The notes beneath the pieces are model-generated. The model was not told the DNA's origin. It was given only the letters and a program-made list of their open reading frames with translations, and searched no databases. DNA of 64,000 bases, from the NCBI GenBank assembly GCA_023078555.1, contig CM041198.1, positions 7,549,836 through 7,613,835 of the forward strand, in the 5' to 3' direction. Both the position numbers and the translations under genes were made by a program. Shown piece by piece: positions 3,945 through 64,000 of this stretch. The stretch's first letter is position 1. Each line of letters begins with the position of its first letter. Source of the stretch: Ulva prolifera (Eukaryota > Chlorophyta > Ulvophyceae > Ulvales > Ulvaceae).

Positions 3945-6900
3945 TCATCCTGGTGCATCCCTAAACCCGGCGCCATGTGCACCCTGACCACTGTTGTGCC
4001 GCTGCTCCATGTCGTGGCGTGCGAGAAAGCCTCGCACAGCAGCTTGCACGTGTAGCGCTGCATGGTAATGTGCTGCGCTGTACTTGGGGTATTGCTCAGC
4101 TTGGGGCGGTAGGACACTGACGAAACGGGCATGAGCTTTCTGCGCTTCATCCGTTGGCAGCTCCACACCCGCAATGCGACCAGCCAGGGCGTGCAGCACT
4201 TCTATGAAATGGACATGTGGAGTTCCATCATACATCCTGTTTGGGATGTCTACCCCCATCACGATGTTTTGCACCTCCAGAGGGATATGAGCCATGCCAC
4301 GCGCTCCCAATGGTGGTTCCACCAGCTCCAACAGTCGTGGCAAGCGGACCGTCGGGATGTACATGCTGCACTGAGGATCCAGCTGGCTCCAAATTTCTGT
4401 AAAGTTGAGCAAGTTGCTCTGGCTCACTTCCAGCTCTTCGTTGTTGTTTGAACTTTGGAAGTTGTCAAGGATGACAGCGATGACCAGGTTCAACAGTAAA
4501 AACGCACACATCAGGACAAACGTCATGAAGTATGCAATCGTAAAGTATATCGGAGGTCCGCATCGATTTTGAGTCGCTCCACTAGGTGCTCCACGCAGAG
4601 CCTCGTCTCCAGCAGTGAACCAGATCCCTGTTTCCGATGTGACACCCACAAGTGTGCCTCCGGCATTCATGAACGGCTGCACAACAGCAGTGCACATGCT
4701 TTGTACCATGCAATCATGCATGATACCATTCCATGACTCCCCAGTTGACATCCGAAAGAGTACAAGTAGAGAAGTGCCAATTTCCTCAAAATTGGCGTGC
4801 CTGTTGAGAAATTCGCCTGGTCGCACATCACCAAATAGGCTCATCCCCATGATTGCAAAGATGAACATAAAGAGGAAGAAAACAGATCCTACATTCACAA
4901 GCGCTGGGAGAGAAAAAACAAGAGTCTGCAAAAGTGTGCGTAGACCTTTTGCCTGCACAATGGCATCTTCAGTTTCCTGACCATCCTTCTTCATGCACCA
5001 CAAGCACACAAGCCTGTGTGCCAGCCAACTGCTGTTGATCCACAGTGTCACACCTTCGGAACAAGCCTGAATATTCGTGCCACTCGAAATACACGCAGCA
5101 GATTTACAGCTGGGATGTCGCTGTCCCTGCTCATCTCAATGGCAAGCTGCATAACAGACACAATCGCGACCGCAAAGTCAAACATGCACCATCGATCTTG
5201 GAAGTACTGCTTGATCCCCAAAGCGACCATTTTCGCCGCTGCCTCAAGCATGAAAACTATTGTGAATGCAACGTTGAGCCAGGTGAGTGTTGTGACCAGT
5301 GCGGGTGGCATGTTCACTCCATTAATTGCAAGGCAAGCCACATTCAGCAAAATTATTCCCATGATGATGCTCTCGAAGACATCTGACATGACCACCTGCA
5401 GTCCACACTTGATTGCCTCGGCCTGCAGCTGTTGGGCATCAGCATTGGCTTGGACATCAGCGCACCCGGAAGACTGCCGCACGGACAGGATGCTCTGGCT
5501 CCGTAGCAGCCCTGGCCGGCTTCGTGCTTGCCATCAACCGTTGTATAGTCACCCACTGCTCCTGCTCTGGTGTCAAGAATATGTTCTGGCCCAGATGTTC
5601 AGCTTGCATCTGATTGAACTTGTCAATAGCAACACCAACGAACAGATTAAGCACAAAAAATGATCCTACAACGACGAAAGCCACAAAGTATATGGCGTTT
5701 TCGGGGCTACTGTCTTGGATCGGCTGCTGTCCAGCCTTCGTAGCATCCACACCCGCATACATAAAATCGGGCCACATCTCCATTGTGGCAATCTCAAAGA
5801 GTGTCAGCAGGGCTGCAAAAATGTGATCGAAGTTAGCCGGAGGTTTGACCCACTCATGCTTCAGTGAGTATACGTTCCCTGCTTCCAGATCATGTCCTGC
5901 GGGCAAAGCATCACGCGGTATGCTTGCATGGTACTGCGAGCTCGTGCCAGTCATCGTGTGACTGCCTTCTTCACACCATGCTTCAGTCATTGGCCCCTGA
6001 GCCGTTTGAAAGTAGTAAGTCGGGTCTAAACGCTGCCCGCGTTGAGCGTCCTGGCAGTACTCAAAGGTGCCCTTCAGGAGTGAGACAAACATGATCCCGA
6101 AGATGAGATAGAACAGGAAGCAGACAAGCATAACATTACCACTGGCTGGTATAGACTGAAATAGTGCATTCACAACCACCTGCACGACGGCAGTGTGGCT
6201 CTGGTCCATTGTGCCAATGACTGACAAAAGGGCTGGGTGAAGATCTGCCTTGCAGCAGAGAGCTACAAGGAGCAGCATGGACTACGCTAATCAGATGAGC
6301 ACTGGCGTAACCTTGGGCATATGCACTTGCATTGGAGAGGAAGCCCAGCCACGGCAACAGGCGTCAGCGACAGCCAGCACGGCTCCATGCAATTACATGG
6401 CTACATACAGTCAGTCTGGTTGTTCGGACTGAGCAAGGGTTGCAAGCAATGGGCTGCAGGAAGCTCTGTCCAGCAATACAGGACCAGCTCCACAGTGGCC
6501 ATATACAGGAAGCACACACAATTTTCCACATGGAAGCCAGAGACACTGTAGCAGCAAGCAACAATACAAGCCCAAGAGCTCAGCAGCCGCTTTGCATACG
6601 TCGAGGATACATGCTTTGTTGCCGAATGACTATGAAGTTCGCACAGCACAAAAACGGAATCTCTAATCACTCTCTAGCAACAAGTGCAGGTGATTCTTGG
6701 ATTGTACATCTACAGGAACACACCTTCATGCCGGGTGCTCTGGACGCCATGCGGATGGGTCGCAGAGCACGGAGTGTCCGCAGAGACTTAAGCGAAGTAA
6801 GCTGGCCATCTGCCTCATCCACCGAGAGCAGCACGATGCCAACAACAACTGTTGCAAAATCGAGAATATTCCATGGCGACTTCAGGTAAGCTGCTGGCTG

Positions 6901-9900
6901 TAGAAGCAGGCCATACACGATGATCTTTGTGACTGCCTCACAAGTGAAGATGATGACAAAGCAGAAATCAGCATTCTTCTGCAGTCTGATAATTTGTGAG
7001 CTTGGCCTTCATTGCTGACAAGAGCAGAAATTTGAAACATCAAGTCCGTTCCCTGTGGACACCAAGGTCACACATGTGACGTGACGGCTGCGACATGTGA
7101 CGGCTGCGCACCAGAACAGTCTTGAGCGTACTTCCTTGTTTCACACTGGGCGAGTCAATAGCTAGGACAATGCTTGAGCAGATGATCAAAGCAATGATGA
7201 CGTGCTCAAAGCGCGGATGCCAGACAATTTTGGCCAAAAAGACGCGGAGTGGATTCCGTGGCCCAAAGATCATCAATGAGTATCCCGCCAACTGTGGTGA
7301 AGGAGAAGGAGGATGGTCAGTCTCTCCCTCATGCGTACAATCCATCTTAGTCATAGCTACAGGCTGTGATGTACTGGCAGGAGCTTCAGCTGATACTTTG
7401 TTTTTCTTGTTGAACGCGTCCCGCATGAGCATGCGCTGCAGGACATGCCTGATTCTATCCTGCATGCACACAGGAAGCTAAAACATCAGAGGCGATGACA
7501 TCTGCCATGTTTGTACAGATGCAATAAAGTCCATGATCAGCTTGCACATGGCATTATTGCATATCGCATCTTCTGGCGCATATACGCGAAGCCCACAAAC
7601 ACCCAGGTAAGTGGGTCATACATGTACATGTAGCACCACTGCTGCTTGCTTGGTCACATCGTCAATGCCGCCCGCAGTGTTAACAGTCATAGATATACTG
7701 TCAGACTGATGTGACATTCGGTCATCGTTGTGTTCATCTTCATTTCCACCCGCAAATTTGTCCAAGAGGATTGCGAGAAACAGGTTTAATACGACATAAT
7801 TCCCTATGATTACAATGGACAAGAAGTAGAGTGCTGCAGTTGAGTTTGTGGCACGCATGCCGTCATACATGACAGTATTCCAGTTTTCTCCTGCACAATT
7901 CCATGTCAGGAAATCAGAAACGCACAACCTGTCTTCGAAGATGTTCAAGCTCCTCTGTGACAGAGCATCCTGCTCTTGCATGCATTGAATTAGACTGCAG
8001 GCACACTGACTCCGTACCAGTCAAAATTTGGAAGATTGTGATGATACTGTTGTAGATGTTATCAAAATTATGCCGCGCTATGTTGCTGTGTCCAGCCTGG
8101 GCAAAGTACTCCCATGAGACGGTTTCTGGGTCGGCATCAGCTGAAATATGGCGAGGAAACCGTTCACAGAATGCCATATCATTGTACGGGGATCCGACCA
8201 GAGGTATCCATGACCCAAATTGATCTCCAGAGCACCGCGTGTAGCAGTCTCGGTGCACTGGACAGGGTGTGCAGCCATTGGCAACACTGCAGCTATCCGC
8301 CAGGCCCATTCCGGGCGGGCACAAGGGCTCTGTACCCTCAATGTCGCAGAAAATGAACCTGCACAATGAGCACTGCTGTCGCCGCATACGAGGAATGCTG
8401 ACTTTGCAGTACAAGTTGACAGGCTACTATTAAGACGAATAACACAGACCTGCTATACCACACAGTGTCATGACAAAGCCACAATAAATTTTGTACCGCT
8501 TACTGTATGAAAGAAGCGGATGACGTAATAACACCCCAAGGCACCCCTGGATGCACATGTCACTGCTGCACTGTACAAACGACAGCCCGCCTGGCTCAAC
8601 CCACAGTGATGCTCACGGCAGCACACAGCGATGCGAGCATGACACAAGCAAATGCGCCTAATAACTCTGCCACATTAGATGAAGAGCTGTGCAAAATCAA
8701 GATGCTGGAAGCGAAGTGGAGGCGCACTTGTGCCCGAACATTTGCATCCCCAATAGAGCCATGATGAAGATGAACACAAGAAGCAGCAACGACAGGTATG
8801 CAATGGAAGATAGAGACTTAAAGATTGTGCGTACAATCTTATTTAGCTCTTCCCATCGGCGAGCCAACTTAAAGACACGCATGAGCCGAAAAGCACGGAA
8901 GACTGACAGGGAACCAGTGCTTCCACCACGTAAAAATAGGACAAACTCGACCAGTGAAGCAATGACCACAACGCCATCAAAAGCGTTCATGTGATCTTTC
9001 ACATAACCTCTCCACCCCAGGCCGACGACCTTGATGAACATTTCAAGTGTGAAGTATGTTGTAAACGCAATGTTCAGAACTTCGTTCATCTGCACAAAAA
9101 TCAGGGATCGCCACACAAATACAATGGTGCCCATTCACAATCGTATTACTGGCAAGAACCGATGCTGTGCAAATGCTACAAAGTTTGTCATGGCGATGCA
9201 AGTGTTCGCATTTGATATCTTGGATATGGCCATGAACCATATCAGCCAACACATAGACTTGTATTCAGCTTGCCCTGCTGCTGGCGCTTGCTGCTCTCAC
9301 AGCGAACTCAGAACATGTGTCTTGAGCCCCCAATATAGGCTGCATGATCAATATCACACATCTAAAAGCATTGCTGCTGCTTCTGTGCATGTTTAACAGC
9401 CAGAAACATACCTGGCTGTGCCATTCTTGCATGTTGTGGTGCTCAGATGCCATGATGACTGTGTTGACAGAAATAAGTGCCAAAGTCAGGACTTCGAAGT
9501 ATGAACTAGCCTGGATGCGAAAGCATATGTCCTTCACCCTTCTGTAGTGTCCACTTATCTTAGATTTCTGCCGTTTAGTTGACGGCTGCAGTTGCGTAGA
9601 ATCTTGGACAGCATTCCGCCGTGCAGCTGATATGGCTGCAGCTTGCTCTTCCCTTTCGATTTCCAGCTCAGCTTGAGACTGGGTGAACTGTAGATAGAGG
9701 ACAGCTAGCGCCAGATTGACAGCAAAAAATGCACCGACTATGATCAGCACAACAAAATATATCCACACATACTCGCTCAGGCCGTCCTGCACAGTACACT
9801 TGCTGAGCGCATGAGCCATTGCAGCTTCGGATTGGAAATTGCTTCCCAGATGGCTGTGGTAGAGATAGGCTCCTGTAGCGAGACCGTGCATGCCCATGGC

Positions 9901-11535
9901 ATGAAAGCCATTGAGGGGCATGCACCAGCCTGAAGCAAAACATCATCTCGCAGGCAGAGTGGTGTGTCTGCGAAAGAAGGCAAATTTTGCAGGAGTTTTG
10001 CTTTCTGAACGCATATATGCAGCATTCGCATCTCCTTGCAATTCAGAACTGTCTTCGATATGTGATCATGTGGGCTGGCAGTCAGAGTTCCAGGTCACGC
10101 ATACATTGGACTATCAGAACACACCTGGACAGCGTACATCACCTCTGTCCACCCCTCCAATGAGACGCATTGAAAAATAGTCAGCCACGACCAGAAGATG
10201 TTGTCGAAGGAGATGAGGCCATAGTTTGGGTTGTCCGAAGCATCACCAACGAAACAGTAAGTACCATATTCACTGTTGCCCTCTGCGCGACACTCATAGC
10301 CGGAGCCAGACTCAGGCTCAGGGTATGATGTTCCTGCACTCAAACATACTTCTAGCAACTAGATGCACAGCATTATGGCAGATTGAGTCAGGACACAACA
10401 TTTGCTTGTGAAATATCGAACAGCATACATGAAGAGACCAGACACTTCCACCAGCCTTGGCAGGAGGCACACCATCAGTTGCAAACCAAGCACCCTGCAA
10501 AGGCAACGTCACTATGCGATCTCCACAAATGCCTTCACCGACCGAAACAGACGATGTCACATTATGAAGCACTCCATTTGCTGCGACATCTCCAGCAGGG
10601 ATCCCGCAACGTTGCCGTAGCACTCCAGCAAAGGTTTGTACACCAATTGTGCCGAATATAAGGAACAGGAAGGCACAGAGAATCAGGACGTCCAGCAACA
10701 TGGGAAGCGACTTCAATAAAGTGGAGACCAGCATCCGCATGCCCTCCACGCCTGTGATGGTCCGCAGTGGACGCAAAACACGGACAGTCCGCATTGCTGA
10801 AATATTCTCGATTGATGGCAACAGGGACATCCATCCCATCACAACCACGACAAAGTCGATCACATTCCAAGCATCTCGAAAGTATGCCCCTTTTGCACCA
10901 TAGATTCCCAGTCCTAGCATCTTCATGACCATTTCGACAGTGAAAGCGATGATGAACACCAGCTCTGCAGCTTGTAAGATGCCCCCGAGCTGTGTGTGCT
11001 GAAAATCTGGTGCGTTCGAGTCCATTGCCAGGAAAACACAGTTGGCCAGAATGAGGAACAATGACATGCGTTCAAATGCTTTGCTCTTCACGGTGCAGAT
11101 GCAGGCGCGTCGAAAAGATGTGCTGGTGTGGAAAAGGCCAAAAGACCATTTCTCCACATTTTTGCACAACTCTTCATATGGCTTCATGGGTGGGAAGCAC
11201 CAAGTATACATTAGCTTGAGGTATGTAACAGATACCTCACTCTTCTCGTTCACATTGCCGGCGGGAGAAGCTGGAGACATCATGACAGCTTCTCTAACGT
11301 TCGCTGAAGGTGACCGGATTCGTTCTGTGCCCTCGCCAATGGGAACAGAACACATATGCATCACATCGCTCTCATCGCTGGCATGGGACTTGTAAGATGC
11401 AACAACATTTTCTGCATCCGCAGGGTCACAACTGCTGGCATGGTGCTGCTCAGGGATGGCTGTATTGGACGATGGGGCGTCAACAACGCTGACCTGGTGG
11501 GCAAGGGCGGCTTGGTTGCCAGCCACTGCCCGCAT
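3945..11535 (-). CDS. Four-domain voltage-gated Ca2+ channel alpha1 subunit (EEEE filter)
   Basis: Eleven exons close in phase (high to low): 11535-10452, 10333-10125, 9786-9412, 9089-8728, 8358-8018, 7890-7622, 7459-7112, 6978-6724, 6179-5466, 5395-5054, 4952-3945, giving about 1,768 residues. There are four repeats of six membrane segments. The S4 sensors are TVRVLRPLRTI (I), VFRAFRLMRVFKL (II), LRTLRALRPIRM (III) and LLRVFRVARIFRL (IV). The pore loops read SLEGW, TGENW, TMEMW and TGESW, so each repeat contributes a glutamate, the signature of calcium selectivity in the CaV family. The domain II filter codon is split by the 7891-8017 intron. The C-terminal tail ends in an IQ-like calmodulin site, HVQAAVRGFLARHDMEQR. 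The protein sits in the plasma or flagellar membrane. The start at 11535 is the first ATG of exon 1; an upstream exon is possible, since TTACGTTCAG lies just before it. The exon 1 donor (10452) has alternatives a few bases away. Confidence 0.95.
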
Positions 11536-12444
11536 GCCAGACGATGCGGCTGCTGAAGCATCTGAACGTAAGCAAGTCACAAGTCAGAGCCCATCATCTC
11601 GAACATTTGAGAGCAACGTCTCCCTGAAAGCATGGTACCAATGTGAAGGACATACTCTCATTTCCCTCTTCAGCAAGGCTTCCAGATGAAGCATTACGCG
11701 CCAAGATCATCGATCCTCAGGCCATGCCTCACAGTAGCTTACACCCCTGAAGTGATTTAGCCGATGACAGAAACTGCTGCTGTTATATCAACTTCCCAAA
11801 GAATTCAGCACGCAACATCACAACTTGCGGTGGATCAGCAAATCAAAACTATTCTTACTAACCCCTCAAATTTCAGTGAGTTGATCCATCCCTTTTGGCT
11901 CATATATTTGCCTATTTCTCGGCGACTTACCGTTCGGTTGCTACATGTTCCGTGATCCTCAAGGGTCGCAAAGTGGCTCAGGTCTGTCGCAGCAGCCATG
12001 CAAAAACGCGAACAAGCTGGAATGTAGCGTCAGCACGTTGAGTGCCTGCGGCCTCACTGATATGAGAAATCCTCGGTCACGCGACGGGTGCAGCAAATTC
12101 TGTCATGGCCCTAAGGCGTGGTGGTGTACAGCAACCAGGAAGTAGGGAGCAGCCAACCACAGGCTCAGCTTGCTACCACTTCATGATAAATGTTACAATT
12201 TGCAGCTAATAATTTGTACAGATTGGCGCTGAAAGAACGCAAGCGCACACACGCGGGGCGCATGGGTGTATGACATCGATTCGTGCCAGCTTCGATTACT
12301 CACAATCGTAACGATTAGACAATTTTGAGTCTGGCATTATCTTGACCACATACCACGCGGACGTTGAAATCCTCTGCTGATGTATCTCGGGGAAAGTGTC
12401 TGAAGGGCCCCAAACCTCCACACGACCGGGCGCTGCAAACAGTC
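11536..12444. other. Intergenic between divergent genes
   Basis: This should carry the promoters of the calcium channel (-) and of the membrane protein at 12445 (+). No convincing exon was seen. An AT-rich patch lies near 12170-12230. Confidence 0.5.
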
Positions 12445-14396: not shown

Positions 14397-17170
14397 ATGT
14401 CTGCTCCAGCTCGCGCGCCTACAGCCTTTCACTCCTTCGCATCTCTGAGGCGGAGCTTCTTGTCGCGGCAGGCGTTGGCTTTGTACCGATCGTCAGGGCA
14501 GCCCCGATGCAAGTCAAGTGCGCCGCAGCCCGAACTTCCCTGTTCGACATATGTTTCTTGATCTTCTGCTCCGACTGTGCATGTATTTACTCCGTTCAGC
14601 CACCAGTGTAGGTGCACCAGCGGAGCCAGACTTTGATGTTCAACAGCTCGACCCAGTGCCGATCAGCGATACCAACATCAACGCTGAAGATTTCGAGGAT
14701 GGGGTAGAATTTGAAGATGATTCAACCACCCGTAGAGAAGGCTACCTCAGTTATATGTTTGTGCGCCTCGCCATCTATCACAGATTGTGGGGTTGTGCCT
14801 GCACCTGTCCATCTTCCCAAGTCACCATCATGCCCGACTTAGGCATCGCACATTCATTGCCTTGAACGTCCCAAATATCTTGTTATTCACGAGAGCTGGC
14901 GCCAGCTTCAGCATGAGTGCTGCTTCTGCTCGTTCATTGGAGCAAATGTGTGTGAGGGGTGCTCCTGTCCGGTTGTCCGACATTGCACGACATGCGAGCG
15001 GCAAATTGAAGGCTCCCTGCCATTGCTGCTCTATGTGAACCTACATTGCTGAAGATAGGCCTCAGGCCATGTGGACTGCGTGCCCAGGGCCTTGCAGCCT
15101 GAAACGTTGACGATGATCAGCAATGAATGCAGGGCGACGAGCTGGACAAAGAGCTGCTCATCAAACGGAATCTTGATGGGGCATTGGATCTGCATGACGT
15201 GAACATCTTGAATCATGCGGATGACACTCACACCACTCCACGATACACCGGCATTATCCCTCGCGCGGCAGCACAGTATCAGTCCATACCTGTCGAGACT
15301 GTCCTGTCTGGAGACATCCTGGACAATGTACCAGAGAAGAAAATCGTTCGCCCTCCCATTCCTATCAGCTGCTGAACTCAGATTCAAATGCTTCCTGCAC
15401 TTGGATACCCCGGGCTTCTGCTCCAAATCTCTGTGCCCGATACTGGAGCAGCATGGCTTGTGCCTCTCACCTGTGGTTTACCCCTTCGGCATATGCGGTC
15501 CCTTTGATTCGGAGTTGTCAATACCCTTTCAGGAGACGGCTCAGTAAGTTCAGATTCACTTTACTGGACCTGTTCTGGTGAGCTGTTTTGCAACATGCAT
15601 CTAGTCCATCCATAGCAGGCAGCACGTACCGGATGCGTCTGAGGCCCACCCGTCATCCAGCTGCCCTTTCGCATGTGCATGCTTGCATCTGCTTCACACT
15701 GCTTGTTGACTCAGCGTACAGTCCTGATGCACCGATCACTTGCGGTGAGATCCGCCAGTGTGTGGCCCTGGCAGGCCATGCCCATGGCGGCATAAGCACG
15801 ACACACGCAGTTAAATACATCGTGCAACGTGCCCATATGTACCGTAGCACCAGGTGATGTATCATAGTCTGTTTGCCAATCAATGATCCACCTCGCTGTG
15901 CATCTTCCACCTGCAAGCCAGGCCCACAGGCGTCCATGACCCCGGGACGCCTGCAGATGCGCCAGCTGCTCCTGATCAAGGTGGCTGCAGAGGAGCCGTT
16001 CCACGAGCTGGACTTTGACAACGCCTTCTGCTTTGACTGTGGCAGGCAGGAGCTCTACAAGATTGCCTACGTGTCCATTCGTGACCCAGCAGAGATCGAG
16101 GACCCAGTGCTGCGCTACCAGTGTGCCCCCCCCCCTTCCCCTCTCTGTGTCTCCGGACTTGTCTCCTCTAGGAGTCATGTCATGCAATGGCCGCTGCCAT
16201 CCACACTATCGTACCAAGCTCATGCTTGAAGCAAGTCATGCCATGCTGGCGTTCATGTCGTGAACATTTCGATTCGCATGGTGTAATCGATGCACAGCGG
16301 TTGTGAATGTGTAGGATTTGTGGTGTTTCCCTTGTGGCACAACCAAGATCTGCTATACATGTATCAGGCTGAGCCTCGCGCATGTGTTTCGGCTTCCGGG
16401 CTGCTGCTGATACAGGAGGGGTGTTATGTGGGGTGCGCCCAGGCTCAAGCGGGCACACTTATGTGCAGTTTACCCACAGCAAATGGGCTTTGAAGTCTCA
16501 GGTGGCTCGCGTGTGCTCGAGCGCATTCCGTATGCTCGACTGAAGCAACATTTCTGAGCTTGCCAACACCGACTTCTCACGAATGCATTCACAACCTCGC
16601 TCGTTCCCTGTCCGTCATGTTGGTGTCTTCTATTCATGAGTTGTGGGTCCCTGGGGTCGGCCACCTCCGACAGTCATCTCCCATAGATAGCCATACCCGA
16701 GGTCTGTGCCGGCCTGCAGGCCGGAGCACGACATGTTCATCCTGGACAGCCGCGACACGATGCCGACCCCAATGATGGTCAACCTCAAGCACGAGGCCAA
16801 CGACATCGGCGCGAACTTCGACGTCGACCTCTTCTCCGGCCTCCCGCCCCCCGCGTCTGCCGCCGCGGCGCTGCCGGAGGGCCGCGACGACGAGGACTCC
16901 GGCGACGGCTACGGCCCCCCGGTGCCCCCGCCGCCACAGCAGGCGCAGCAGGGCGCGCAGCCTGGGGAGGTGTCGGCCGCGGCGGTGGCACAGGCGCTGG
17001 TGGCGGGTGAAGGCGCTGTGGCGGAGGCGGGGGAGGGCAGGGGTGCGGACATTTGGGAGGCCGCCGACGCGGAGGAGGCGTCGGCAGCGGAGGAGTTGGA
17101 TAGTTTGTCGGGCGGGGTGGAGCAGGACCGCGGGGAGACTCCGGACGTGCCGGCTGTTGATCTTGCGTGA
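14397..17170 (+). CDS. Unrecognised protein with a Cys-rich zinc-ligand-like block
   Basis: Exons with closing phases: 14397-14517, 14612-14760, 14843-15034, 15133 to about 15327 or 15345, a gap where one or more exons may be missing, 15957-16120, and 16720-17170. Exon 2 is acidic and ends EGYLSYMF. Exon 3 carries HECCFCSFIGANVCEGCSC, then HCTTCERQIEG, a dense Cys/His pattern suited to binding zinc. Exon 4 starts GDELDKELLIKR and includes ETVLSGDILDN. Exon 5 begins MRQLLLIKVAAEEPF with a further CFDCGR pair, and joins in phase 2 to PEHDMFILDSRDTMPTP in exon 6. The tail after about 16840 is Ala/Pro/Glu-rich and probably disordered. No family was recognised. Joining all exons into one gene rests on phase and direction; exon 1 (with FLSRQALALYR) is the weakest. 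The intron at 16121 has a C-tract next to its donor. Confidence 0.6.
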
Positions 17171-35337: not shown

Positions 35338-38300
35338 ATGCCTGCCTCTTGCACACTGCTGGCATGCTTTCGAGGCGTAGCGGCAAGCCATCCACATCTG
35401 CGCCACATCCTGCCTGCCTGCCTGCAGATGCACAATCGCGACCCCACTCTCGTCCTCCACTTCCTGAAGCACCCACAGCTGCACAGAAGTCAATCAAGCG
35501 CACCTGATGGCGCAAACGCAGGCAGGACCACCGGGGTCACACCGCAGGACCCCCTGCAAGCACACACGCCACCCGAGCCTTCCGCAGCCACTCCCTGGCA
35601 ACGCCGCCACTCACTAAACACAGCCCACCCGCGACAGCCAGCCTTCCCCCATGCACTGCAGCAGGGCTACCTCCCTGCCACTGCTCCTAACCACACCCTT
35701 TCGGTCGCCCTGCAGCAGCCTCAAACCACCCACCCACACCAGCAAACCAGCTACCCCCCCTCAGCCGTGGCCATCCCCCACGCCTCCCCTGCCCCACAGT
35801 CAGCATTCACCCACCCTCCTGCCTTCTCACACGACCACCCCCCTGCCAGCCCCCCCACTTTCGATTCCTACAACCTTCAGGGCCGCATGCCGTCGCGGCC
35901 TCTGCACGGCTCACCGCCCGGCACAGGCCCCCCGCTTCCGCCGGGCAGCAGCCCCCCGCACCTCATGCCCCCGCCAATCCGCACCCAGCTCAGCCACGCC
36001 ACCTCCGGCCCCCCAGGATGTGGCTACGGGGACGTGCACTTTATGCACGCGCACCCCTCACTCACCCCTATGTCGTCAGCGCCCGCGTCCAGCACGGCCA
36101 CGTACTCCTCCGCCGATGCGTGGTCGCCTCGGACGTCGTCGTCGTGTGGAGCCGCCGCGGCATACCCGCCCGCCGCGGCGATCCACCAGTCCCCGCACAG
36201 GCCGGTGTACGCGTCCCACGCCGCCCCGGAGCCGCCGCGGCCCCCACCGCACCTCCCCGCGGCTCCCCACCAGCCGCCGCCAGCAGGTGCTGCCCCCTCC
36301 TTGCAGTGAGATGCAAGCAGACAATTTGCAGCATCGTTTACCGCTGCGTGGGTTGGCGTAGCCGGTGAGTGATTGACCACTGCGTGCGCGCAAGCTGTGC
36401 GCGTCCATGATTGCGCAGTTCACGGCGTGAACACCACACCTGCGCGGGCTCACCACCTCCGTGGCCGATCCTGCCTCTGAGTGAGCCGGTGTCAACAGCA
36501 TCGCCGCCGGGAGCATAGCCGATGTGGGATGCACAATGGGCGCGCATCAACACCTCAGGCACCCGAGGCGGCCTCGCCACGCCGATGCAGACACGGCAAG
36601 ATGCATGCAGGCCCGGGCCGCAAGCGTGCACTGCTCATCGGCTGCTGCTACCCCAACTCCGAGACGGACCACGTCCGGGGCGCGTGCCACGACGTAGAGT
36701 GCATGCGCGATCTGCTGTGCGGCCTGTTCCGCTTCCGGCCGGAGGATGTATGCATGCTGGTGGACGTGCCGACGCCGTCTCTGCCGAAGCTGCGGCCCGA
36801 GACGGTGCCGACGCGGGCCAACATACTGCGGGAGATGACGCGGCTCGTGCATGGCGTACAGGCCGGGGACTCGCTCTTTTTCCATTTCTCTGGTGCGGCG
36901 CCCATGCATGGACCGGATGCATTGAACAGCTTCGGTTGCATGTTGGTCAACGGCAAAGCTAGGACATGCATGTATGGATGTACACAATCGTTGACTTTGG
37001 CGTGTCTACACATGCGTGATTTGGGCGTGGTCGCGTGCAATGTGATGCCCGCCTGCCTAGTTTGCCGCGGCTGCTGATGTGTTGGTTTGCTTTCGGTGTT
37101 CTTCGCAAGTCCGTAGCAGTCGGGCAATGTGCTGTCAGGTAAGGCCTGCTGAACTGCTGCTCAGGCATCCAGATCTTGTAATCGTCCTCCCGCACATTCC
37201 CGCGTGCGCTCGTGGTCACTGCCACACAAACCTTGTTCGACCATCCGCTTCACATCGCCGACCTCATCCGTCCGCGTCCCTATGAGACAGGGACAATCAA
37301 ATGACATCTCACTGTCCACCACGGCTCGCACCCCCCGCCAGGTCCGCGCGCGCTCCAGCGTATGCATGTGATGACGCGGCGGTGCTGCACCGCAGGCCAC
37401 GGCGACCAGATCCCCGACGACTCGAGCATCCCCGAGCCCGACGGCATGAACGAGACGCTGTGCCCGACCGACTTCCGCTCGCAGGGCCAGATCGCCGACG
37501 ACATCATCAACAGAGTGCTCATCAGGCCGCTGCCGACCGGCGTGCGCCTCCACGCCCTCGTCGACGCCTGCCACAGTGGCACCTCGATGGACCTGCGCTA
37601 CAACTACGTCTACGACCACGCCTCCGGCGGCGCGATCCGGACTGTCGGCGAGAGCAAGTGCGTGCTGCGTGCTGTGTGCTACGGATAATCGCTTTGCGCC
37701 GGGGTTTCACATGCTTGGCCTCTGCGACATGCATGGGTAGCATGCATGTGTCATGTATGATGCTACATGCATGCGTGCACCGGAGGGGCGCGGCGGATGC
37801 GGGCCCGTGGTCGCACGGGCCTGCGGTGTGGATGGTGTGCACTGCGCGGGTGGCGTGAGGGCGGTGCTGCAGCCGGCAAGAGGTTGGGGGTGTGTGTGCA
37901 GGGAGGCGAAGGGCACGTCCGGGGGCTTTGCGGCGATGTTCAGCGCGTGCGATGACAGCCAGCTGGCCGCGGACACCGTCTCATTCGGCGGCCTCTACCA
38001 CACCGGCGTCGCCACGAGCTGCTTCGTTGAAGCTTGCTTCCAGATCCATGCACAGAGAAATCAATTCACGTGCGCCCCCCCCTGATTGGTTGCCGAGCCA
38101 CTGCGTTCGATCGTCCGACTTTGTGCTGGTATTGAAATGTGACCTTTGGCCGGCAGTCCTCCCAAGAATGCCGCAATGCGCAGGGCGACCCCTCACCTCC
38201 ATGCATATCCAGCACCCCTGTAGCCACTGACTCCATGCAGGTACCTCGACGTCCTCCGGGAGATGTCGAAGCGGGTGCGGGAGTACGAGAAGGGCCGCAG

Positions 38301-48621: not shown

Positions 48622-52184
<3,563 letters not shown>

Positions 52185-55454: not shown

Positions 55455-58400
55455 ATGGCGTTAACATGGGACGACCTGGCGTTCTCCGTGGTGTTCAACT
55501 GCGGAGTCGCCTTGGTCTGTTTCATCATCTTCAACGTCCTGCGGCGTCTTTCTTTCCTTTCGAATTTCTATATGGCAAGGAGATATCTGGCGATTCCGTT
55601 CAGGTGTGCGTCCCAGGCTGCGACCTGCGCCATATGTCACGGCAGGCACATTGACTGCTTGCAGCCGCGGCGGTTGTCTTTTAGCATCAAAGCCTGGGCC
55701 GATATTCAAATTGATCCGAATTGTTTGGCGGGGGTTCATGGCAGCGACGGCCGTATGTCACCAACGCCGACCAGTCATGCCGGACGGTTGCTGTGCCAGC
55801 GCAAGTGAGTCAGCTCGTCAGCTCGCTGTACAGCACTGGCATGCCATGTAATTCCACATGGGTACTCTGATTCTGCTCTTTGTCGAAACCTTCTGGCTGT
55901 TTACATGTCCGGGCGTGCGTTGCCCGTCGCATGTTGCCGTTCGATCGTAACAACTCCGAACGAGGCCCCACTGCCGAACGGCAACAACGGCAACCTGAGT
56001 GTTACTCCGAAAGATGCAACTTTCTGCATGAAGTCGACTGCATACTGCTTCTGCGCGTCACCCATGTTTTCCGTCATCCACCTGACCCCGCCCGCAATAC
56101 TCGGACAATCGTCGCAACCACGTCGTCCAGCCCTGCTTATGCTACTTCATGCTGCCGTCGAAGCTGCTCGAGGGCGGCGTTTGCTCACCGCTGAGTACGG
56201 GTGATCTGTGGTGCATTGACGCACGCCGACCCACGCGAGCACTGAGATTGTGGCCAACCTGCCCGTGACAGCCCCGGTTCCACGGCACTGCCTTGCCTTG
56301 CTGCGTCGCACGAAACTGCAGCCGCCGTGCTATTTTGTATCGTGTCAGCTATGCGTCAGATCCAGACAGGAGAGTCGCCCTGAGAACGTACGAAAATGCA
56401 GTCCGGAACGGCGTGCTTCCGATATCTGACGTGGACTGCAGCTGAGCTGTCAGTGCACATTTTGCGGCAGCAGCCGACTCAGCTGGCCCGCAGCCTGCAG
56501 CTCGGCGGAACGCATCGTCAACATATTATGTCGCTAAACATGTTATGGCAATGTGTTGCGAGTGTGCCGCCGCACGTGTGATCATGCATGCACCATTATG
56601 CATTCACTGATACCATGCCGGGCACACCTTACGGCCTGGTCTGTCCCCAGATCTGTGCAATCGGGAGGGGGGAGGGGGACATAATCGGAGTTCCTCTATA
56701 TGGCCTTGGGCTGCAGCCTGTGACTCCATTCTGCCGTGCCTTTGCCAGAGGTGTATCGGAGGGGAATACTGATGTCTGTTTTTATGGCGTGATGTTTGGT
56801 TGATGGTGTGGTGGTGGAAGTGTGGGCAATCGTTGATGTTGATGGGGTGTGGTTGTCCCCATCCAACCATGTACCAGTGTGGACTCCACACCCATTACTC
56901 CAGGGCCAGGGTTTCGGTATGATTCATGCATGACCCACCCATCATCCATCCACCCTGCACTATCCAAGTGATCTTTCAGATGACAGTGTCAAGGAACTTG
57001 CGATTGGTGACATCCATCCTCCATGACATCCATCCTCCATGTCATGCGATTGGTGATATCCATCCTCCATCCTCCGTGATGTTCATGTAATACAGCATCA
57101 ACCAGTGATTTCTACCTCAGTACACAGTGTTGTGGCAGAACTCAGTAATAGCAGCAGTTCATCAGGGTGCCCTGATATGTCTGGGGGCGTGCCTGTCTGT
57201 ACAACCCTAGCCCCTGCTGAGAGGGTCCCAGCTGAGCATGGCATTGCATGGCATTGCTTTGCATGTGCTACAAGGACAAAGCTGCAGAGGCAGCACCGCA
57301 GCACCCAAATAGGGGCACCACACACGCATGCAACCAATGGCACAAGCACAGCATACCGGTGGTGTTGTTGTGTATACATGGGCTGCATGCGTGTGTGCAT
57401 CACCAGCCGCGGCCTGCGGTTTAGAGGCCGGTGCTCTTGTGTGTCAGAGCATACCACATGAAGCAACCTGTAATGCTGGCCGAGCGCTCCAACCCCAGCC
57501 CACGGCGCAGCGGCAGTCCCACAAACATGCATATCACCCGCTTCACCCGTCCCTGCACAACACCCCGAACCATGCATGCCCGTCCTCTGGGCGCGCCCAT
57601 AGGTGTGATGGCAGCACTCTTGTCACACTACCCCGCCCCATGCAGTCTGCCGCCGCGCATGCAGGTTCCGGCCGCCGCCGCTGGCCTCAAGCTTCTTGGG
57701 GTGGATGAAGCCGGTGTTCACGCTCCCGGACGAGCAGTTCGCGCGCGTCGCCGGTGTTGACGCGCTAGCGTATGTGCGCTACCTCAAGCTCTGCCTCAAG
57801 ATCGCCGCCTTTGTGACCCTTATCGCGTTCGGCGCGTTGCTGCCGACCAACATGACGAGCGACTTCGTCTCGAAGGAGCTGCGGCGGCAGGCGCGCCTCG
57901 GGTGCGAGCTTGAGGAAGACGAGGACGCCGTCGCGGTGCGCCCCTCACTCGCCCATTTTTTCTTTCAGAACAGCTGCGTGGTTCTTGTTCCGCAGCTGTT
58001 TCGCTGTATGCATGCATGATTGCATAGCTCTGTCCACATGGACTTGGACCGCTCCGGAATCCGGGATCGCTTTAGTGGCTGTGCCATGAATGATCTCAGT
58101 CGTGTGCACCACTGTGGCGCTGTTCGCACCAGCCCCTAAGACCCCAAAGCACATCCAGGCAATGGCGGTATCAATGGCGGTTCTCGCCGACCCCCTGTGC
58201 CGCTGCGTGCGCGCTGTGGAGTGCGACCCCCTGTCGCCGCCGTCAGCTAGTGGTGGTGTGGGTGAGAAGCTCAGGCGCCGATTGGCCGCGGGGTGTCTGT
58301 CGAAACTCATTCTATATATCTCTACCTGAAAACACAAGGGTTTGAATCTCAAGTGTGGGAGGCAGGCGAGATTGATTGATGTTGGATATGTCGCTGTGTT

Positions 58401-59023
58401 GCCCACCTGTTGTTGAGGCAAGCAGCACGCACTGGAAGCGTGTGGATGTCGCTTGTGCTCTGCCGCCGCGTGCAACCGCTGCGTGCTCTGCCGCTGCGTG
58501 CAACCGCTGCGTGCAACCGCTGCGTGCTTGGTGTTTCGCTGTTGGCACACCGTATCTATGCATGCTTCCGCAGCCATACCCATGGAGCCATCGCCAACTC
58601 TGAGACCCGGTTCCGGTGCATCGAGGCTGTGCCCTCATTGAGATGCGTGGTGTCGGGTGCTAGCACCACTGTGCTGCTTGAATGAGCCCCTTGGATCTCA
58701 GAACCAGCCTGGGCAATGGCGGTTGCACCACCGGCGGGGCTAACTGTGTGATCGCTCTGCCCTCGATGATCGGCGTGCAGCTCCCCCGGCAGCCCACGCT
58801 GTGGTCGCTGTGTGACGGGTGCGGACGTCAGTGCAGGCCATAGCGGCGTCCCCTGAGCAATCCCCTGCAGAGGCAGCAGCGGCAGCAGCAAAGGCGGAGC
58901 AGTGCGGCTTCGTCGTCAACGAGTTCGACAAGACCTCGCTCACAAACATCGAGCCGGACTCGATGAAGCTGTGGGTGCACGTCGGCGCCGTCAACCTCAT
59001 CACCTTTGTCATCCTCGTCGTAC

Positions 59024-59065
<42 letters not shown>

Positions 59066-60809
59066 CGCCATTCTGACACCTCCCACACTTCCTGCACGTT
59101 CCATCCTGCGCACGTCCAGCCCGAGCCGTCATAACCGCGCCCTGTCTGCGAGTGGTGAACGGCCGCACACGTACCCGCTGGGCTGCGTGCTGTGTGGGCT
59201 GTGGGGCGCGGGGCGAGACAGCCACACACCTCGCTCTGGAGCCGGCTGCGCGTGCGGGCGGGCGCGTGCCAACCTTGCAGACGCACTTCGGCCAAGGGCT
59301 GATCCGCGGAGTGCATGTGCAGATGCTATGGCAGCACTATGAGGAGACGATCGCGTGGCGTGTGCTGCACCTGTCGTGGCTGCGCCGCGGTGATGAGGGC
59401 CACACCGTGCTCGTGCAGGACGTGCCGACCACCAATGTCCTCGAGGCCGGTGCCGAATTGCTCTCCAACGTGCGCCTCCACCTCCCCCCCCCCCCCCCCC
59501 CCCCCCCCCCCTGCTTGCCACGGCTGCTTGCTGCTGGTGGCATGCTGCCGCTGACTTCTCCTGCTTGTGAAACGCTCCGCTCCGCCCCTGGTGCATCGCT
59601 GCCGATGGTCACACACCGCCTCCGATTCCTGAAGCCGCAGCTGCTGGTGCCACGATGCCGCTGACTGTAGCTGCTTTTGTTCAGCGCGCACGGTCGCTGG
59701 TGTTGCACTGACCACGAGGCCGGTGCTGCTGCAGGCGATCGACGACATCGACGACCTCTTCTCAACGAAGAACAAAGAAATCTATTTGGCTGATACCAAT
59801 ACCGTCGACCCCCGCCGTGTGGCACGCCCCCCCTCCCTTCGCTCTACCTGCGATATCCTTTGCACTCTTCTCTGTGTATGCGTGTGTACGTGTGGTGTGA
59901 TTCTGGGCAGCAGCAGTGCGGCTGTTGAGCTGGGGCCGTGGTGCAGGGTGGAGAAGCGACAGGCAGCTTTGGCATGCCACCTCAGCCACTTGTTCGGCGC
60001 ACTGACCTCGCCGCCTTTGAGAGCCGCCCCCCGGTGACCGACTTCGAGCCTGCTAAGCAGGTAACCCCTTGTCCCACGTGTTGGTCTGCGTGTGGATGCT
60101 TCGGAGGCTGAGGGCACTGCAGGCCTGCTCCCTTGTCCTGATCAAACGGCGTCTGGGTGTGGCCATGCACCGCAGCCCGGCCAGCAGTGCCGTTCAGAGC
60201 TTGCTTGCTAGCCTAGCCATGTGAATGCATGGTCAATGCCCGGTGCTATCCGATGAGCGGCGCTTTCACGGTTCGGCTGTGCTGTGACCCAGCCCGGGCT
60301 TCAGATGCTGACGGTGACAAGCATGGGGCATCAGCAGTGTGGTGTGTGTGCGTGTAACAACACCGCAGCGGGGCGGCTGCAGGTGGATGCTGCGCTGGAG
60401 AAGAAGGTCGAGATGAAGGACGTCGTGCGCCGCGAGTTCGCGCGCTCCATCGGCGCTGAGCAAGTCGAGTGTGCTTCTACGCCCCCATCCGCATTGTCGT
60501 GCACGCATGAGCCGTGCGTGTGTGCGTGTACGTGGTCTGTGCTGCAGCAAAAGCTACGAAAAACGGCGCTGTCCCGTGTCGATCACACTCAACCCGGAGT
60601 GTCCAGGGGTGGAAACAGCCTCGTGCCTCGCGGTGGTCCTGTGATGCAACACTTGATGGGGAGGCGTGTGGCGGTGCAGGGCGGTGAACGTCGTGTACGA
60701 TGACAGTGCCATCAGCTCAGACAAGAAGGAGTTCGACGGTCTGATGGAGAAGATCAAGGATCTGACCGACTTGTGGGTTGGCAAGATGCGCAGCGGTTCG
60801 CGCCCCCCG

Positions 60810-60841
<32 letters not shown>

Positions 60842-63800
60842 CCGTTCATCTATGTCACTTTCTGTGCATCTGGCGCCTGACGCAGGTGGAACAACACCGT
60901 GCTTGCTGTGTTGCGGTGCGTGGCGTGGCGATAACGGAGCAACAGCGGTGCGTGGCAGAGCTCAGCGTCTGTGCTGTTGCTGCATTTGTGCTGCGGCCAT
61001 GACATCCGCCCCGCGCCTGCACCGCCGCGCCTGCTCCGATCCACACGCCCCTGTGGCCGCTTTGTGCGTCTGACCGCAAGAATCCGCCCCTGCTCGGAAC
61101 CAACGGCAGGCCCCCATCACGCCATGCATTCCCTCCATGTGCATCCAAAGCGTGGCAGAGAGAGCCCGAAAGATGTGAGGTGGGGTGGCCTGTCACTAGG
61201 TGAGGTCGCCAGCAGTGAAAAGCTGCGAGAGTGCGGTGCTGTGCAGACGATCACGACAAGCAGGGTGCGCGCAAGAAGATCAAGCGCAAGGAGGTGAAGC
61301 TCGGCAAGATGATGGGCCTTGGGGACATCGACGAGGAGGCAAAGAAGGCCTTCGGCCAGGGTGCCGACAAGGCCGATGAGATGCAGTACAGCATCTTCCG
61401 CCTGCGCCAGCTGAAGCGCGAGCTCGCCGAGCACCGCGAGCAGGTCTTCAAGGAGGTGCTCATCCACCACCCCTTACCGCGTTTTCTTGATGTTGCTGTG
61501 GTTGGTTGTCTGCAATGCCCTCTGCCAGAGTTTCTGTCACCAGCAGAAGTAGACCTGGTTTCTGAAAGAGGGTCAGCGCGTCTCAGGCTGCACCGTAGGA
61601 GCGCATGTTCTCGTCATAGCCGCAGCCCGAGCACACAATGCCAGCTTCTTGAGCTGCGATGGTGGCAGCAGAAGATTTGCGCTTATCGCCGGCGATGTCT
61701 CTCGACACAAGACGCTGTGCCACTTGTCCTGTATGGTCCGTTCCGGAAGCCCGGAGTCGTCTGCACGTTCGCCGCTCACTAACCCTCCGGCAGCTCCCGC
61801 CTTTCGGCATCATATCACCTACCCACGCGCACATACACCCCTATCACAAACTTCGACATACTCTCTTCCAGCCGCACGTGTTCCCACCCCTGCTGGCGCA
61901 TTCCCACTCCCCATCCCTACAGATCTCGGGAATTCAACTGAACACCCCTGGCCGCTGTGTGCAGCCGTCGCATGCCGCGTTTGTGTCGTTCCGCACCCGC
62001 CAGGCGCAGTCCACCGCGGCCACCGGCCTCCTCAGCCTCGACTCCACCTCCTGGCTGACCACGCCCGCGCCCAACCCGACCGAGGTCATCTGGGACAACG
62101 TGACGTGCCCGCACCAGCAGCGCGGCCTGCGCCAGCTCGCCGGCTGGGGCATCCTCGCCGCTGTCATCGTCTTCTTCTTCCCCATCATCTTCGCCCTGCA
62201 GCAGATCGTCAACCTGCAGGGCTACGCGGAGCCTGACAACTGGGCGCAGTGGCTCCTGGACGCCCCGCTCCTCGGCAGTGCGCCCCCCCCCCCCCCCCCC
62301 CCCCCCCCCCTTCGCCCCTGCTGCAGCCACTGCCCCTCTCCTCCTGCCGTGTTGCTCCTTCTGCAGAGCCGTCTCCTGCTCCGTCTCGGGTCTTGGGTCG
62401 CACTCCTGACTTGGCGAATGTCTAGAATGCAGAACACAACAAGCAGCAGCTGATGCTGGTATCTCTGCGTGAGTGTATGTGCTGATGCAAGCAGCCTGGG
62501 TCGTCATGGAATCTATCATGGCAGTGTTGTCAGAAACAAAGTCTCCCAAAAATAAAAGAAGAAGGCACAAAAATTCTGTTCTGCTGCTGCGCCAACCACC
62601 CGGCGCGCACCCAAGCCTACCGCAGCCCCCGGCCGCAACGCCCTAGGCCCGCACGTGCAGACCTGCTCAAGACGATCATGCCGACACTCGCGCTCACAAT
62701 CATCCTCGCCATCATGCCGATGGTCCTGAAACTCGTCGCCGCGAAGATCGAGAAGCAGCCCTCCCTCTCTGCCGTCGACTTCTCGCTCGGCCAGAAGTAC
62801 TTCATCTTCCAGTTCTTCGTCGTCTTTGTCTTCAACACGATCCTCGGCGCCGCCTCCACCGGCACGAGCGGCGGCGACTCCGCGCTGCCGGTCGTTGACA
62901 TCTTTAATGACCTCAAGAAGGACCCTAGCCTCATCACCGACTGGCTTGGATCGGCGATCCCGCAGCAGGTGTCCCCCTGCCCTCCTCCACATGCTCTGCA
63001 TGCCTTGCATGCTCAGCCTTCCCTTGCTGCCCTGCTGCTGCCAGGCCCCATCTCTTGCTCCACCCGGCTGGTGCCACGACAGATCTAGTGTACATCTCCT
63101 GTGAGCCTAAGCTTTGTGTTTGCCCCCCCCCCCCCCCCCCCCCCTCTCTTTCTTTTCTTTTGTTGTTTGGCGTCACATGCCTGTACATCGCTTTTTTCAG
63201 CCATCACCAGCCCTGTCGGCACCGCCATGCCGCTGCTGCGGGAGACGTACGTGTCGTGTGTGATTTTCAGCGCGTCACCGCGCACTACCACCTACCGATT
63301 GCTTGCCGGTGGTGCGTCGTGCTGCGCACGCATGCCGTGCATCGTGCTGCGCATGCATGCCCATGCATCGTCCGCCCCCTTGTCCGCTGCCTGCACCCTC
63401 GCAGCCGCGCTCCATCAAGCCGGGCCGCAACCCGTGTGCACCTCCGCAGGCATCCTACTTCCTCTCGTTCCTGCTCACAAAGGGCGTCCTCGCGTCGTCC
63501 ATCCGCTTCCTGCGCGCCCCGGGCGCCGCGATCTACTTCATCCTGAGCAAGATCTCGAGCAGCGAGCGCGCGAAGAAGCGCACGTGGTCGCACCAGTACG
63601 CCTCGTACGGCACCGCCATCCCCTCCGACTCGATGGCCTTCCTCATCCTCATCGTCTTCTCCGTCTCGCAGCCGTTCGTGGCGGGCGCGGCGTTAGTGTA
63701 CTTCTTCTGCAGCCACTTCTACTGGCGCTACGACCTGCTGTACACCAAGCGCGAGGCGTTCCAGTCTGGCGGGCTCTTTTGGCCTGTGGTGCGCACGTTG

Positions 63801-64000
63801 GTTTCTCTGGACGCAGTTCCATGCACATGCAACTACAGGGTTTCCCTGATAGGCTCTGGGCACCCGGTCTGATCAGCATACACACGTTTGTGCAAAAGAT
63901 CACAGCATGTTTTGCATGTGCCAACGACCTCTGTGGTGCAGATGTTTAACCAGATGCTGGTCGGCCTGATCGTCTTCCAGCTGACGTACATCGGCATCCT
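55455..64000 (+). CDS. OSCA/CSC1 (TMEM63-type) Ca2+-permeable mechanosensitive channel, 3' partial
   Basis: Thirteen exons close in phase: 55455-55603, 57665-57935, 58837-59019, 59323-59469, 59735-59816, 59963-60060, 60383-60468, 60680-60795, 61247-61455, 61965-62277, 62661-62968, 63450-63788 and 63942 onward. The first membrane segment is in exon 1 (FNCGVALVCFIIFNVL). Exon 2 has WMKPVFTLPDEQFARVAGVD, and exon 3 DKTSLTNIEPDSMKLWVH. The cytosolic RNA-binding-like insert follows (VLVQDVPTTN). Exon 10 has AAFVSFRTRQAQ, PTEVIWDNV and the helix AAVIVFFFPIIFALQQIVNL. Exon 11 carries pore-lining-type helices and SLGQKYFIFQFFVVFVFNT. These proteins are dimeric cation channels of the plasma or organelle membrane, gated by membrane tension and hyperosmolarity. 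The insert is charged and long (KKIKRKEVKLGKMMGLGDI). The exon 9 donor is uncertain (61443 or 61455). The gene continues beyond the window. Confidence 0.93.
57009..57082. repeat. CATCCATCCTCCATG minisatellite in OSCA intron 1
   Basis: Imperfect tandem copies of a 15-19-base CATCCATCCTCC unit in the 2-kb first intron. Confidence 0.85.
58460..58532. repeat. CCGCTGCGTGCAA tandem repeat in OSCA intron 2
   Basis: Five to six imperfect copies of a 13-base unit. Confidence 0.85.
59026..59063. repeat. C38 tract after the exon 3 donor
   Basis: The tract begins six bases after the donor GTACGT at 59020. Confidence 0.97.
59484..59511. repeat. C28 tract after the exon 4 donor
   Basis: The tract begins 14 bases after the donor GTGCGC at 59470. 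Confidence 0.97.
60802..60839. repeat. C6-G-C30 tract after the exon 8 donor
   Basis: The tract begins about seven bases after the donor GTTCGC at 60796. Confidence 0.95.
62283..62310. repeat. C28 tract after the exon 10 donor
   Basis: The tract begins five bases after the donor GTGCGC at 62278. Confidence 0.97.
63123..63144. repeat. C22 tract in OSCA intron 11
   Basis: A mid-intron C run followed by a pyrimidine stretch; here the donor itself (62969) is followed only by a short C run. Confidence 0.97.

Follow-up and report, generated by a model that had tools for sequence, protein, structure and literature searches.

Long runs of C lie immediately 3' of exon-ending 5' splice sites (donors) in the green alga Ulva prolifera, on the sense strand and far beyond what chance would give. 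The arrangement was predicted from a 64 kb stretch of DNA (the window; contig C3:7549836-7613835, in a genome of 88.9 Mb and 44 contigs) that carries part of an OSCA/CSC1-type channel gene, in which four introns begin with a donor and then a run of 28 to 38 C. Here we report that long C-runs are concentrated at such donors in ordinary genes beyond the OSCA gene, and that they often start 5–9 bases past the exon end. The original prediction, that C-runs recur at the donor side of introns, is borne out: throughout the genome they occupy this position in the sense orientation, next to donors at which coding exons end.

The genome contains 10,006 runs of at least eight C and 2,919 of at least 19. 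The word GTGCG directly precedes 208 of the former, where 16.8 would be expected, and 92 of the latter, where 4.9 would be expected (expectations were derived from the frequency of GTGCG, 0.00168 per position, measured in the 264 kb of sequence described below); when the order of word and run was reversed, the counts were 7 and 4, respectively. More generally, GTNNG stands before 186 runs of at least 19 C versus 60 in the reversed order. An effect of the GCG context was ruled out, as GTGCG makes up 208 of the 284 sites at which DDGCG precedes at least eight C and the remaining 76 are split over eight other words. Runs of G do not follow the donor rule of the C-runs, since GTGC occurs before G20 31 times genome-wide and in the reversed order 26 times, which is no excess. 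We also tried a pattern with a variable gap, GTRCGN{1,12}C19, which gave 161 forward and 912 reverse matches with a control of 464 and 96. (Note that these strand counts differ because of how overlapping matches get counted, and that the reversed control includes the very common word GCATG.) Compared like for like (161 versus 96), the excess was weaker than for direct contact, and we did not build on it. GCATG itself has double the frequency of GTGCG (0.0034 versus 0.0017 per position in the window together with 200 kb of contig C1, pieces L009-L028), and on visual inspection introns seem rich in TGCATG-like words.

The run-adjacent donors that we tested look genuine, judging from the exons that precede them. 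At 19 of 20 sites with GTGCG and at least 19 C on contigs C2 and C3 (of 92 such sites genome-wide), the donor marks the end of a coding exon, whereas this holds for 23.5% of 850 other GTGCG words. Nine of these 20 exons match a Pfam family at E ≤ 0.01, namely helicase, FMN-dependent dehydrogenase, glyoxalase, MA3 (twice, one of them below the curated cut-off), GH47, phosphofructokinase, Sec23/24 zinc finger and protein kinase, and the match ends 0–13 residues from the donor in eight cases and within 17 residues in the ninth (zf-Sec23_Sec24).

A larger set of 113 runs was composed of 100 runs of at least 19 C from the start of contig C1, seven of at least 12 from a C1 sample and six of at least 12 from the window, five of the latter six being donor-near. 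(The 100 C1 runs are the first by position, covering about the first 2.9 Mb, and not a random draw.) Clustering of the runs is modest (17 gaps below 3 kb versus 9.7 expected; the highest count among 2000 simulated sets was 20). A scored donor within 45 bases, with coding sequence upstream, was found at 41 of the 113 runs (36 of 107 when the window is left out); in the opposite orientation the count was 16, and among 600 random positions it was 61. GTA or GTG lies no more than 10 bases upstream of 40 of the 113 runs (three of the 40 are in the window); the coding signal is upstream of the run at 25 of these 40, downstream at four and on both sides at one. If the proportion of 25 in 113 holds across the genome, there would be some 650 donors with a run of at least 19 C, an extrapolation from a mostly positional sample. 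Pfam matches at E ≤ 0.01 were obtained for 12 out of 30 exons taken from the C1 and window set, with six of these matches below the curated cut-off, and the Mo25 and ATP-synt_D matches reach the last residue before the donor. Moreover, once the Mo25 exons are joined over GTGCG, C17 and an intron of 1746 bases, the reading frame is kept and the alignment to solved Mo25 continues past the junction.

We considered whether these runs might lie at acceptors instead. An acceptor behind the C-run was found at 21 of the 113 runs, versus 14% of random positions. In the opposite orientation, an acceptor with downstream coding sequence was found at 36 of the 113 G-runs, again versus 14% of random positions; however, 34 of these 36 are donor matches too, and the donor reading outscores the acceptor reading in 32 of the 34, so that the opposite-orientation acceptors are an antisense shadow of the same exons.

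It is very improbable that the pattern is an artefact made up of exonic proline codons, assembly errors or wrongly called donors. Homopolymer lengths in the assembly may be inexact, and our gene finder (see below) differs from some of the donors that were chosen by hand. Nevertheless, the signal of coding sequence does not continue past the run (25 upstream versus four downstream of 40, which rules out poly-proline exons), the Mo25 and OSCA joins restore homology over the intron, and error would favour neither GTGCG nor one strand.

To place the runs within introns we used a home-made gene finder, trained on 264 kb (the window, 64 kb, and 200 kb taken at even spacing from contig C1) from a few homology-supported open reading frames and hand-chosen OSCA exons; the introns are accordingly predictions. 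In training, C- and G-runs of at least six were neutralised and the splice signals of the first round were GT and AG alone. The finder converged on (C/G)(A/C)G|GTGCG as donor and TGCAG|G as acceptor, with 223 introns in the 264 kb. In the 156 predicted introns of at least 120 bp there are 12 sense-strand runs of at least eight C, of which seven start within 40 bases of the donor, in 4.6% of the intron sequence (0.5 expected, p = 2.7e-7), and five of the seven begin exactly 5 bases past the exon end. One of the 12 ends within 40 bases of the acceptor. Thus, an even spread of C-runs along introns, named beforehand as the observation that would count against the prediction, did not occur in these predicted introns. 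Note that four of the seven donor-proximal runs come from the window; outside it, three of seven runs are donor-proximal. Masking of the runs works against this result, since the finder so masked read two of the OSCA runs as exon. In the same introns, neither of two runs of at least eight G and none of 17 runs of at least eight A is near a donor, and repeats that might act as general splice signals showed no clear donor enrichment (two of 23 GT repeats of four or more units near a donor, 1.1 expected, and none of 11 AC repeats of four or more units). In the 200 kb of contig C1, the stored strand has 18 runs of at least eight A versus four of T; these numbers are small, but uneven.

The window illustrates the pattern, with eight C-runs of at least eight, all eight on the plus strand, and no G-run of at least eight in its 64 kb. 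The relevant features are as follows.

57665..64000, plus strand: OSCA/CSC1-type channel gene, partial (it runs off the window), with RSN1_TM, PHM7_cyt and RSN1_7TM matches
57936..57955, plus strand: OSCA donor GTGCGCCCCTC, C-rich, without a long run
59020..59063, plus strand: 5' splice site GTACGT (donor 59020), then C38 (59026-59063); the upstream exon ends an RSN1_TM match; the gene finder chose 59024
59470..59511, plus strand: inferred 5' splice site GTGCGCCTCCACCT (donor 59470), then C28 (59484-59511); from frame and coding content only
60796..60839, plus strand: inferred 5' splice site GTTCGCGCCCCCCG (donor 60796), then C30 (60810-60839); from frame and coding content, and the choice of the penalised finder
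62278..62310, plus strand: 5' splice site GTGCG (donor 62278), then C28 (62283-62310); from homology to solved OSCA channels
63123..63144, plus strand: C22 in the interior of one of the OSCA introns, 152 bases past the predicted donor and not next to it
16121..16135, plus strand: predicted 5' splice site GTGTG, then C10; gene-finder intron
38070..38082, plus strand: predicted 5' splice site GTGCG, then C8; gene-finder intron
50982..51040, plus strand: predicted 5' splice site GTGCAG, a C-rich leader, and C20 at 51021-51040, 39 bases past the donor

The four OSCA introns are as had been described, each with a donor and then C38, C28, C30 or C28. Two of the four donors have homology support: the RSN1_TM profile match stops one residue past the exon end at 59020, and a hand-joined translation aligns without gaps to solved OSCA channels across the join of the intron at 62278, whereas 59470 and 60796 are assigned by frame and coding content. 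The run-masked finder placed the first donor at 59024 (4 bases later) and took the runs at 59484 and 60810 for exon sequence; a finder that penalised runs chose 59024, 59450, 60796 and 62278, which is 4 and 20 bases away from the first and second hand-chosen donors. The range originally given holds the four donor-side runs, together with the run at 63123-63144, which is intron-interior, and the donor at 57936, which has no long run. The shorter runs pointed out in other genes are present (C10 at 16121, C8 at 38070 and C20, 39 bases past the donor at 50982). A gene with four C-run donors is unusual, with P(≥4) = 2e-5 on the assumption of 1.3% per donor and 13 introns, both of which are estimates.

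How did the runs arise behind donors? We tentatively favour the explanation that a slippage-lengthened C-tract favours use of the 5' splice site, even though we give it somewhat less than an even chance. Here, C-rich sequence behind the donor would serve as an intronic splicing enhancer that aids 5' splice-site use in this lineage; the tract may keep the donor single-stranded, bind a C-binding (KH-type) protein, or both; and a C seed behind the donor would grow by replication slippage to 20–40 C, its exact length not being under selection. That tract length changes fast is indicated by a duplicated locus on contig C1 (at 45 kb and 58 kb; L029 and L030), whose copies have near-identical flanks and C-runs of 32 and 22.

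An origin by mutation alone has almost the same likelihood as this splice-site-helper reading. In this alternative, the runs would be functionless slippage expansions that are commoner behind donors because C seeds are frequent there, because the junction is prone to expansion, or both, and that are tolerated within the intron. Run lengths are alike at donors and elsewhere, as this account would have it, and the excess over the intron interior, taken over the first 100 bases, rises steadily with run length between C4 and C≥8 (a small sample, in which the interior set overlaps the last 40 of these bases). There is also a precedent, in that tandem repeats in Chlamydomonas and Volvox are biased towards intron ends according to the accessible part of one report (PMC3887541). 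The likeness lies in simple repeats at intron ends in green algae; the repeats described in that part of the report are, however, mainly GT/AC and occur at both ends, whereas those found here are runs of C, at the donor end, on one strand and in a preferred register behind GTGCG. A U-shaped distribution, with repeats at both intron ends, was not seen for C-runs of at least eight in our predicted introns. Three observations speak against neutral slippage: the interior should be equally tolerant, yet seven of 12 runs fall in the 4.6% of intron bases next to donors; GT, A and G repeats are without donor bias; and runs of at least eight reach at least 19 more often behind GTGCG (92 of 208, 44%) than elsewhere (29%; p = 3e-6). 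Tolerance alone cannot explain why donors exceed the interior, and therefore selection for C or a local mutational bias remains.

Of these two we lean towards selection, because poly-C enhances splicing in a human reporter and because U1 appears canonical while GTGCG matches it imperfectly. In that reporter, a poly-C of at least four behind the 5' splice site was a strong enhancer (PMC8789036, as given in the accessible portion of that paper), and the exons enhanced by poly(C)-binding proteins (PCBPs) have C-rich flanking motifs that lie mostly upstream of the exon (PMC4797308, likewise in part). The intronic enhancers of PCBP1/2 (alpha-CP) thus resemble the tracts described here in being C-rich and adjoining a splice site; as those sources present them for mammals, the motif is short and mostly upstream of the exon, whereas the alga has homopolymers of 20–40 C behind the donor, with a putative enhancer role. 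The U1 gene that we read has the canonical 5' end AUACUUACCUG (one read; the best of five candidates, all below the curated cut-off), and an altered U1 with a G-stretch or a complement to GTGCG was rejected on that basis. Since base pairing between canonical U1 and GTGCG, the commonest donor, is incomplete, a downstream helper is plausible. As for the protein that might bind the tract, the genome has 12 KH matches, with two or three close together in several places; the best solved relatives of the product of a triple-KH gene (C9:1926758-1927495) are IGF2BP, FUBP and Nova, with PCBP weaker, and the role of a named poly(C)-binding protein is a possibility only.

Short C-runs behind ordinary donors bear on this as well. 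Between positions +6 and +45 of 147 introns without a long run, CCC occurs 130 times and GGG 62 times, compared with 1385 and 1392 in the interior. Vertebrates also have homopolymers a few bases downstream of the donor, in the form of G-run enhancers of 5' splice sites; there the base is the opposite one, and GGG is depleted behind donors here.

The strand of the runs would also suit an effect at the level of DNA, in which a quadruplex formed by the template-strand G-run (or an i-motif of the C-strand) pauses the polymerase just past the donor, leaving the splicing machinery more time. A G-run of at least 19 contains the usual quadruplex motif, and sense C does correspond to template G at these donors. 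Template-strand quadruplexes also correlate with splicing outcome in human and mouse, but the correlation described in the accessible part of that report is with exon skipping and not with better splicing (PMC3902930). In addition, a quadruplex needs longer runs than those in which CCC outnumbers GGG behind ordinary donors. We consider this explanation unlikely.

Mobile introns of the introner type with a C-run at the 5' end were largely refuted, and we regard them as very improbable. The green alga Micromonas has introners (PMC4815162), likewise an unusual feature of many introns; introners are recognised by homologous sequence that many introns share, whereas the C-run introns here have no sequence in common beyond the run. 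In an all-against-all comparison of the 300 bases downstream of the 113 runs, long matches were limited to the duplicated pair L029/L030 and to adjoining runs, the latter lying in one or two overlapping stretches (L056, L085, L106/L107), and all other matches were of at most 34 bases. C-run introns of very different length also occur.

Several findings weigh against a helper role for the tract. Run length has the same median, 27, at donors and elsewhere, and these equal length distributions suggest that a single slippage process acts, on seeds that are present or absent according to position. For 64% to 78% of the 113 runs, no donor could be detected nearby. Among short runs, the bias comes mainly from too little GGG (62 versus 123 expected from composition) and CCC is not in surplus (130 versus 142), and a weaker imbalance of CCC over GGG is also seen before acceptors (113 versus 77). 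The triple-KH protein that we examined is not clearly PCBP-like. The share of donors with a long run is small, on the order of 1% (extrapolated), and because so few donors carry one, the tract is not required. Finally, the C-run donors are not visibly weak (GTGCG accounts for 92 of 186 GTNNG words before at least 19 C and for 34 of 82 GTNNG donors in predicted introns); a pure compensation model does not fit this, and the tracts occur at consensus donors.

It is a doubtful, though defensible, further step to regard the C-tract as a 5' splice-site element peculiar to this lineage, with a part in recognising the donor, in a preferred register behind GTGCG and with a length that slippage is free to vary. 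Helpers of splice donors are known mostly from animals and are usually short, degenerate motifs, and our literature search brought up no account of C-runs that follow donors in algae. If the element is real, it would be a mirror image of the vertebrate G-run enhancer that could tune the splicing of hundreds of introns. As a homopolymer behind hundreds of algal donors is easy to see, delete and count, the dependence of 5' splice-site recognition on intronic context beyond U1 pairing becomes directly testable. If the runs are purely mutational, exon-intron junctions would be places where homopolymers grow especially readily, an equally surprising outcome.

Some further observations concern individual runs. 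Two loci on contig C1 at about 2.226 and 2.236 Mb (L104 and L108) have alike exons that both break after HEILHAL, and both of the introns start with a C-run (C26 and C27) and differ in sequence downstream. A leishmanolysin (Peptidase_M8) match is clear at L111 (2.316 Mb) and weak at L108, and L104 has no Pfam match. At L105, a C24 run lies near a C25 run on the other strand, and the two could form a hairpin.

Elsewhere in the window, two open reading frames at 3945-11583 (minus strand) have Ion_trans matches, one of them with weak GPHH and IQ matches as well, and would belong to a voltage-gated calcium-type channel gene. The chlorophyll a/b-binding family has 38 matches in the genome, which fits a green alga or at least a green plastid; for the best of them, whose matching chains belong to green algae and plants, the top total score is to an LHCI-2 chain (over two matching stretches), and the top single-domain scores are to chlorophyll a-b binding protein/LHCII chains.

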